A DNA stretch of 64,000 nt from Cyclobacteriaceae bacterium. GTDB lineage: Bacteria; Bacteroidota; Bacteroidia; Cytophagales; Cyclobacteriaceae. A program made the position numbers and the translations under genes. Below, one piece after another: positions 43,965 to 45,664 of this stretch; position 1 is the stretch's first letter, and each line of letters opens with the position of its first letter. The stretch is from assembly GCA_019638285.1 (NCBI GenBank), contig JAHBUB010000009.1, forward strand, positions 1 to 64,000, in the 5' to 3' direction. The notes beneath the pieces were generated by a model. The model worked only from the letters and a program-made list of their open reading frames with translations. It ran no database searches and had not been told where the DNA came from.

Positions 43965-45071
43965 ATGGATAATTTTGTTGTATCGGCTAGAAAGTATCGA
44001 CCCCTGGGCTTTGATGAGGTGGTGGGCCAAGAGCATATTACCACCACACTTAAAAATGCAATAGATAGTAATAAACTCGCTCAAGCCCTTCTTTTTTGTG
44101 GACCAAGAGGAATTGGTAAAACTACCTGTGCCCGTATTGTAGCACGCATGATCAACGGGTTTGAAGAAAAAGCAGAGGCAAACTCCCTCAATATTTTTGA
44201 ATTAGATGCAGCTTCAAACAATTCAGTTGAAGACATCCGGAATCTAATTGATCAGGTACGATATCCCCCTCAATTTGGAAAATACAAAGTCTATATCATA
44301 GACGAGGTGCACATGCTGTCCAATTCAGCATTTAATGCTTTTTTGAAAACATTAGAAGAACCACCGTCTTACGCCATTTTTATTCTGGCAACGACAGAAA
44401 AGCATAAAGTGATCCCTACGATTCTCTCCAGGTGTCAGATATTTGATTTTAACAGAATACAAGTATCAGATATTAGCAGACAACTAAAAAAGATTGCTGA
44501 TCGTGAAAAAATTGCTGTAGAGGAAGAAGCTCTCCATCTTATCGCTCAAAAAGCAGATGGCGCCTTGCGAGACGCACTCTCGATTTTCGACCTGATGGTG
44601 ACCTTTTCTTCGGGAAAAGAAGTGACGTTTAAAGATGTACTAAGTAACCTCCATATCCTCGACTACGATTACTATTTTCAGGTAGTAGACTGCCTATTGG
44701 CGGAAAATATGAGTCAACCGTTATTACTATTGGATGAAATATTACGCAAGGGATTTGACGGTCATAATTTTATAGTTGGTTTTAGTGAACATATAAGAAA
44801 CCTATTGGTTTCGCAGGATGCCAGAACCATTGACCTGATGGAGGTCCCTGAAGCTACCAAGAAAAAATATCTAGAACAGTCAGGATCAGCATCCCCCTCC
44901 CTGTTATTATCATGGCTCAGCATTGCCAATCAATGTGATCTTAACTACAAGAGCAGCAAAAACCAACGTCTTCTCGTAGAGTTAGCACTCATGAAGATGG
45001 CGTATGTGAATGCTGTGGTAAAGCCCAGCTCAGCCCTCGTGGAAGAGGGAGTAAAAAAAAAAGTGAAGTAA
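43965..45071 (+). CDS. dnaX: DNA polymerase III gamma subunit; zero-frame product of dnaX
   Basis: 368 aa. Clamp-loader AAA+ ATPase: RKYRPLGFDEVVGQEHI at the N-terminus, Walker A GPRGIGKTT (about 46-54), LDAASNNSVEDIRNLIDQV, Walker B VYIIDEVHML, sensor-1 FILATTEKHKVIPTILSRCQ and GALRDALSIFDL. The four-Cys zinc module usually found between Walker A and LDAASNN is absent (residues 61-76 carry no Cys). The zero frame ends with GVKKKVK and TAA at 45069-45071, just after a run of ten A. That makes this the short gamma form. The downstream frame supplies the tau tail by a -1 shift. Confidence 0.92.
   Translation: MDNFVVSARKYRPLGFDEVVGQEHITTTLKNAIDSNKLAQALLFCGPRGIGKTTCARIVARMINGFEEKAEANSLNIFELDAASNNSVEDIRNLIDQVRYPPQFGKYKVYIIDEVHMLSNSAFNAFLKTLEEPPSYAIFILATTEKHKVIPTILSRCQIFDFNRIQVSDISRQLKKIADREKIAVEEEALHLIAQKADGALRDALSIFDLMVTFSSGKEVTFKDVLSNLHILDYDYYFQVVDCLLAENMSQPLLLLDEILRKGFDGHNFIVGFSEHIRNLLVSQDARTIDLMEVPEATKKKYLEQSGSASPSLLLSWLSIANQCDLNYKSSKNQRLLVELALMKMAYVNAVVKPSSALVEEGVKKKVK
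45046..45062 (+). promoter_or_regulatory. dnaX A10 slippery site for -1 frameshift or transcript slippage
   Basis: Zero-frame codons GTA AAA AAA AAA GTG AAG TAA contain ten A at 45053-45062. A -1 slip re-reads A45062 and enters the frame AGT GAA GTA, open to 45664. AGGGAG (45046-45051) lies directly upstream; in E. coli dnaX a similar element stimulates -1 shifting, but there the spacing is about 10 nt, here shorter. A weak dyad TAACT...AGTTA follows the site. Such long A runs also allow RNA-polymerase slippage, as in Thermus dnaX. Confidence 0.75.
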
Positions 45072-45664
45072 CTAGTGAAGTTATTGAGGAGCCTAAAGCT
45101 GAAAAGCCTATTGTATCCCCCCCCTCCACTCCGATACAAGAAGTAGTCCTACCTACCAGTAAGGTTCAACCCACTCCAGCAAAACAAAATACAACCGGTA
45201 GACAAAAATTAACACTGAGTCTTACCGATCTTGCCAATGGTAACACTAAAGTATCAGAACCTCTTCAGGAAGAGACCAAAGTAAAAAGCCCTCCTACCAT
45301 TAGTAATAAACCAGTGCACTTGGAGGCCTTGAAAATTGCATGGGATGAATTTGCTGAACAAAGAAAAACGCAAGTGGGAGAGTATCACCTATTAAAACAG
45401 GAATTTGATTTCCATGACAATCAGATCACTATTCACTTGTCCAATTCGGTAGAAGAACCTCTTCTGCAGAGTATCCGCAATCCACTCACCGAATTTCTTA
45501 GAGAGCGCCTTGGTAATCGTAGTTTAAATATAACCAGTCAGGTTCGGGAGATACAGCTACAAAAATTTGCCTATACGAGTAAGGAAAAATTCGATAAGCT
45601 GACCGAAAAGAATCCTATACTCAAGGAATTAAAGCAGCGGTTGGATTTGGATACTGACTTCTAA
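45062..45664 (+). CDS. dnaX: tau-specific C-terminal extension of DnaX, -1 frame
   Basis: 200 codons, open in the -1 frame from the slippery run to the TAA at 45662-45664, with no stop in between and no good start codon of its own. Residues from the junction are a Pro- and Lys-rich linker (about 80 aa: PTPAKQNTTGRQKLTLS and similar), then a compact domain: LEALKIAWDEFAEQRKTQV, LLKQEFDFHDNQITIHLSN, EFLRERLGNRSLNI and FDKLTEKNPILKELKQRLDL, the pattern of the Bacteroidota tau C-terminus. Joined to 366 gamma residues it gives tau of about 566 aa. An extra A (A11) in the true sequence would make one continuous frame instead. Confidence 0.85.
   Translation, partial: SEVTSEVIEEPKAEKPIVSPPSTPIQEVVLPTSKVQPTPAKQNTTGRQKLTLSLTDLANGNTKVSEPLQEETKVKSPPTISNKPVHLEALKIAWDEFAEQRKTQVGEYHLLKQEFDFHDNQITIHLSNSVEEPLLQSIRNPLTEFLRERLGNRSLNITSQVREIQLQKFAYTSKEKFDKLTEKNPILKELKQRLDLDTDF

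Follow-up and report, generated by a model that had tools for sequence, protein, structure and literature searches.

A split dnaX gene with ten consecutive A at the gamma/tau boundary is confirmed as a real feature of the DNA window studied here (the whole stretch of 64,000 nucleotides that was analysed). RNA polymerase probably slips on this run, which follows a predicted RNA hairpin; some of the transcripts would then gain one A and thereby encode tau. An earlier note on this DNA, made from the letters alone, had proposed that gamma and tau are both encoded through a slip on A10, and comparison across relatives supports this as the likely reading.

The dnaX locus and its products

The gene begins with an ATG at position 43965 of the plus strand, where all parts of the locus described below lie. 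Its templated frame, gamma, continues for 368 codons to a TAA at 45069-45071 (43965..45071, as given by the ORF call and by a match to TIGR02397 over the cut-off). The ten A occupy 45053-45062, flanked by GAGGGAGT before and GTGAAGTAA after, and are read in the zero frame as GTA AAA AAA AAA GTG; this putative slip site consists of exactly ten A in 220 of 279 loci. The sequence and the ORF call match what the earlier note had given for the end of the gamma frame (45071), the position of the run and the length of gamma (368 aa). Computed translation with one A added to the run enters the -1 frame (45062..45664) and yields a product of 566 aa ending at 45664, in agreement with the open -1 frame and the tau of about 566 aa proposed there. 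Two added A, which give the same frame as the loss of one, lead to an immediate stop and a product of 367 aa; this third-frame stop, which A9 or A12 transcripts would meet, is the TGA at 45064-45066.

The best named matches are Cyclobacteriaceae and Cytophagales assemblies. The gamma part matched TIGR02397 at 380.6 bits (cut-off 250) and positions 1-365 of PRK14971 with an E-value of 5.4e-190 (633 bits, below the full-length cut-off of 685). The tau-specific part matched positions 422-613 of PRK14971 (E 1.9e-19, 69.9 bits, also below the full-length cut-off), and gave no match in Pfam and none to solved structures at E 1. The description of this part as a typical tau linker and C-terminal domain therefore depends on one family model, PRK14971, together with conservation.

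A conserved run with a variable template

We compared dnaX loci across the order and across the class, taken as Bacteroidia in the GTDB sense, searching for the run from about nt 960 to 1300-1450 of the gene; the loci share descent and were weighted by genus or family rather than on a tree. Within the order, a dnaX match was present in 115 of 118 genomes, 14 of these matches were left out, and the 101 loci read carried A10 in 84 cases and at least nine A in 93, with 16 of the 21 families and 59 of the 66 genera represented. Within the class, where 117 of 119 genomes gave a match (27 left out, five already in the order sample), at least nine A were found in 75 of the 85 further loci read; one of the 75 lay off the boundary and two (L255 and L326) were cut by contig ends, and the 72 kept for statistics represent 41 of 49 families. 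Four duplicates, L063 (whose contig ends before the boundary) and G203 (whose run lies outside the boundary) were dropped before counting, and L044 and L335-L348 were left out of use.

The pool of 279 distinct loci (named loci plus the order and class samples, duplicates removed) has a run of seven or more A near the boundary in 266 and of A9-A11 in 249: A10 in 220, A11 in 14, A9 in 15, A8 in two and A7 in 15, a few of the counted A7 runs lying off the boundary (L238, L243, L315). The run is more than a chance stretch: A or T runs of this length are few in the window's own genome (see below), and upstream of the boundary run the next longest A run in dnaX of the relatives has five or six A in 197 of 249. 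A10 is the commonest length in both template classes, gamma-spelling and tau-spelling, and in every codon phase (133 of 154, 22 of 33 and 65 of 79 loci with at least seven A), phase 2 being the most frequent (154 of 266). In 106 of the 249 A9-A11 loci the DNA spells tau, and in the other 143 (including L255, at a contig end) it spells gamma. Tau is reached by one added A in 138 and by the loss of one A in four (L215, L245, L291, L306); the listing of L255 among the latter is a contig-end artefact, and the count is therefore four, not five.

The template flips within genera: G091 has A10 and spells tau, G064 of the same genus has A11 and spells gamma, and in a second genus tau is spelled by G217 and gamma by G180 and G246. 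Outside the class (51 of 59 phylum matches read, eight left out) the run is patchy, with at least nine A in 35 loci and at most six in 16. One family there, f83, spells gamma in 14 of 17 loci and tau in three, and two of its loci from the same genus, with shared flank, differ by a one-base flip, A9 spelling gamma (L396) and A10 spelling tau (L397). As a guess, this family may correspond to the green sulfur bacteria, since PMC3711429 names species of Chlorobium. Another family outside the class, f89 (L349-L357), has A9 in eight of nine loci and A10 in one, all tau templated and Thermus-like.

Judged from these sequences, the conserved trait is the length of the run rather than its frame or the templated product. 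Such a pattern, in which related species differ in template yet keep the run, would be expected because slippage would yield every frame, and the product spelled by the DNA would then hardly matter. As for the outcome that the earlier note held against slippage, namely relatives with only an uninterrupted dnaX, it was not what we found, and uninterrupted relatives nearly all keep the same A run.

We rejected a sequencing error in the homopolymer, or a dnaX pseudogene, as an extremely improbable account of the split. Homopolymers are error-prone and the assembly consists of 85 contigs, but A10 or A11 with a gamma template is present in 21 of 23 same-genus loci (window included), and also in the single-contig order genomes G033 and G142. 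The other two same-genus loci have A9 or A8 and a tau template, the A8 (L016) having an adjoining N, and three of 24 same-genus genomes gave no dnaX match at E 1e-40. Stops in both alternative frames also recur in relatives, and the tau frame is conserved as protein: in gap-free alignments of the window with relatives, change in this frame is mostly synonymous (pN 0.19-0.35, pS 0.86-0.93 in seven of 11 pairs; the other four ungapped pairs, with L011, L018, L045 and L051, were misaligned), and the other two frames have no excess of synonymous change in the same seven pairs. No dN/dS ratio is given because synonymous sites are saturated.

Stops in both alternative frames

In 97 of 98 loci a stop ends each of the two non-tau frames within 10 codons, whereas at later positions of the same genes this holds for 22%. 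The class sample gave 71 of 72 loci, against 28%. In the window itself the closures are the TGA at 45064 and the TAA at 45069. This double closure favours slippage during transcription, because one closed frame would be enough for a unidirectional shift.

These observations bear on the possibility that ribosomal -1 frameshifting acts alone, ribosomes slipping on A_AAA_AAA within the A10, perhaps with the help of the SD-like AGGGAG, and a fraction of them going on to make tau. A ribosomal -1 site needs seven A in one phase, yet ten are kept in all phases; the closed third frame would be unneeded, yet it is present; and four loci require a shift in the opposite direction. It is consistent with purely ribosomal slippage that gamma-templated loci have tau nearly always in the -1 frame, one added A being equivalent to a -1 shift, and that phase 2 predominates. 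We consider this explanation quite unlikely. The retention of run length, not of frame or templated product, together with the double closure, thus speaks, short of proof, for slippage in transcription rather than on the ribosome.

A predicted hairpin upstream of the run

Folding predicts an RNA hairpin at 45034..45049 (CCCUC arm, gugGAA loop, GAGGG arm), ending 3 nt before the A10. Its stability in the window is modest when taken alone (-9.3 kcal/mol, z -2.0, with nine of 200 shuffles equally stable), and no sampled segment of the same gene reached it. The AGGGAG that the earlier note placed just upstream of the run is indeed present, at 45046-45051, but it overlaps the 3' arm and is better read as part of the predicted hairpin.

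The same position stands out in relatives. When 24-nt segments of 97 loci were folded, stability peaked sharply at the run, with -5.83 kcal/mol there and -4.13 kcal/mol 3 nt upstream, segments further upstream reaching only -0.7 to -2.9 kcal/mol; the genus-weighted value at the run in the order sample was -4.76 kcal/mol. After correction for composition, the 5' excess was -3.61±0.44 in the window's own clade (37 loci), -1.89±0.33 in the order sample (59 genera) and -2.37±0.36 in the class sample (58 genera), and it fell to about zero 9 nt upstream of the run in all three; smaller upstream dips were seen in the own clade at -72 (-1.64) and -120 (-1.26). A hairpin of -5 kcal/mol or below accompanies 137 of 249 boundary runs versus 13 of 183 other runs of at least seven A in the same genes, and is weaker than -5 in the remaining 112 of 249. 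Of 250 segments of 26 nt, 151 folded at -5 or below, the stem ending 0-4 nt before the run in 137.

The two arms also co-vary. Exchanging them between species of the own clade (39 loci) cost 1.7 kcal/mol, none of 2000 permutations being as good, and exchange within GC thirds of the class sample (72 loci) cost 2.4 kcal/mol, with none of 1000 as good; control swaps at -120 gave rather low values too (14 of 500 and four of 300). Arm swaps across all species are inflated by differing GC, downstream control segments reaching z -4, and weight was therefore put on the own clade and on the GC thirds. No co-variation was found in 23 Algoriphagus-like loci, where 655 of 2000 permutations were as good. 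The co-varying predicted hairpin adjoining the A run is apparently a new observation.

The window's own genome (G000, 3.98 Mb) has A or T runs of at least ten at only seven places (eight overlapping matches). On the observed count, this may reflect avoidance of slip-prone runs. When the seven are read on the A strand, only the dnaX run has a 5' hairpin below -1 kcal/mol. Three of the others lie in coding frames and lack such a hairpin: an A11 close to the 3' end of a 585-codon frame whose match to PF00521 (DNA gyrase/topoisomerase IV subunit A) is sub-threshold (19 bits, cut-off 31; L127, G000:C23:195493), an A10 towards the end of a frame for a pyridoxal-dependent decarboxylase (PF00282; L130, G000:C78:3013), and an A10 within a coaBC-like flavoprotein and DFP frame (L125, G000:C1:44459, minus strand).

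Features expected of ribosomal slippage

Several features of the site could serve a slipping ribosome. The zero frame offers A_AAA_AAA, without the E. coli heptamer A_AAA_AAG. The 30 of 33 tRNA loci covered contained a single tRNA-Lys (UUU), after a first look that scored 150 of 245 candidates; E. coli too has one, and ribosomal slippage there has been linked to it. SD-like cores upstream of the run are enriched (43% in the order sample and 54% in the own clade, 0-22% in control segments). Loci with a strong hairpin have them more often (51 of 100) than loci with a weak one (11 of 39), which counts against a purely ribosomal mechanism; they may therefore be the purine-rich arm of the stem, though they may have a ribosomal role as well.

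No downstream structure stands out in the window: the segment at 45063-45110 folds at -6.3 kcal/mol (z -0.07), with 91 of 200 shuffles equally stable. In the own clade, downstream arm swaps gave a weak signal (z about -3, at +4, +8 and +24 alike), and the composition-corrected energy dips by -1.26±0.39 at +9. A downstream stimulator, sought by energies and arm swaps, was rejected on these weak signals, which recur at unrelated offsets. The conserved structure is 5' of the run, and according to PMC6321510, -1 shifting by 70S ribosomes in vitro is attenuated when a hairpin lies upstream; SD sequences are not recognised by Bacteroidia ribosomes, according to PMC9976891. Both reports, together with the overlap of AGGGAG and the hairpin, weaken an SD-stimulated ribosomal shift as the main reading and leave it quite unlikely.

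Pontibacter and other A7 loci

Nine loci on records named Pontibacter (L105, L107, L113, L114, L116, L119, L120, L122, L124) have a different arrangement, with A7, a templated tau, a zero frame that reads A_AAA_AAA and a -1 frame closed immediately by a stop. The predicted hairpin here is 3', beginning a few nucleotides past the A7. Taken as a group with L036 and L060, these eleven A7 loci have no clear 5' hairpin (-1.06±0.80); the composition-corrected dip lies 3', peaking 15 nt after the run (-2.95±0.33), with a further dip of -2.51±0.81 at -42. The layout of the Pontibacter loci, with a 3' hairpin and a tau template, is like that of the E. coli ribosomal -1 signal. This suggests, without proof, that the Pontibacter lineage may have exchanged transcript slippage for ribosomal slippage and retained both products.

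Of the A7 loci, L060 (on a Cyclobacteriaceae record) differs in having A7 followed by GAAG, a gamma template and a strong 5' hairpin (-14.4 kcal/mol); it is perhaps an A10 broken by one G.

The Pontibacter loci also lend some credit to a combined mechanism, in which transcript slippage would set most of the ratio, ribosomes slipping on the A10 would add to it, and some lineages, such as Pontibacter, would be wholly ribosomal. An A10 supplies the heptamer in any phase, and the SD-like enrichment is in keeping with this; but slippage of ribosomes at the A10 sites here is hypothetical, and the 5' hairpin should oppose it, given the attenuation described in PMC6321510. We judge such a combination unlikely.

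Comparison with known systems

The window's dnaX belongs to a kind already described, because PMC3711429 (2013, GeneTack) described 17 dnaX genes with two ORFs, of which nine have ten A, and proposed transcript slippage. The earlier note knew of no described case in this lineage, a statement to be corrected in that two-ORF dnaX genes with ten A had thus been published; this lineage may be among those nine. The window resembles these genes in having its gamma and tau parts in two frames, in the -1 relation at the DNA level and in the A10 junction; it differs in the 5' hairpin and in tau-templated relatives that keep the run, neither of which is mentioned in section 23 of that paper. A literature search found no report of the 5' hairpin, of a class-wide A10 in both templates, of template flips or of the A7 branch; the supplement of PMC3711429, Larsen 2000, Sharma 2011 and Penno 2015 lay outside it.

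In Thermus thermophilus dnaX, as described in PMC5009743, an A9 slips in transcription and stops are present in both other frames. The window shares with it (PMC5009743 and PMC1088944) a run of at least nine A where gamma and tau part, the closure of the two other frames and the same two products; Thermus templates tau and has A9, whereas the window templates gamma and has A10. The length of A10 is close to that of the RNA:DNA hybrid of the Thermus polymerase, put at 9-10 bp in PMC5009743. A parallel for the hairpin is the Roseiflexus IS630 element, where a 5'-adjacent RNA stem-loop enables transcript slippage (Penno 2015, as cited in PMC5009743). There, as in the window, where it is only predicted, the stem-loop lies directly 5' of the slip motif, but the Roseiflexus motif is T5C5, its stem is required and one base is lost, whereas the window has a homopolymer A10 in a chromosomal gene, with mostly one A gained. 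E. coli dnaX (PMC6321510 and PMC3711429) is alike in being the same gene with two products, an A-rich site and an SD-like sequence upstream; the window has none of its A_AAA_AAG, 3' hairpin and templated tau.

Discussion

Transcript slippage, as we envisage it, would proceed as follows. With the polymerase at the end of the run, the RNA:DNA hybrid (9-10 bp) would consist entirely of A:T pairs. The hairpin would by then lie at the exit channel for the RNA, much as in an intrinsic terminator, and would loosen the hybrid so that the RNA could re-register. A11 transcripts would then give tau (566 aa), and A10 and A9 transcripts gamma (368 and 367 aa).

On balance we think it somewhat likely that, in the Bacteroidia and perhaps in sister classes, a terminator-like module of hairpin and A run sets the gamma:tau ratio of dnaX at transcription, that the template drifts freely, and that Pontibacter swapped this module for a ribosomal signal, the hairpin moving from 5' to 3'. 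If true, this would be a natural experiment, in which the same two products are obtained through a 5' hairpin and A10 in most lineages or, apparently, through a 3' hairpin and A7 in one. A literal reading of the DNA would list gamma alone or tau alone for many such genomes. Stem-loop-assisted slippage, known from a transposase, would extend to a chromosomal replication gene, and a large class of bacteria would rely on programmed polymerase slippage in one of its core genes of replication.
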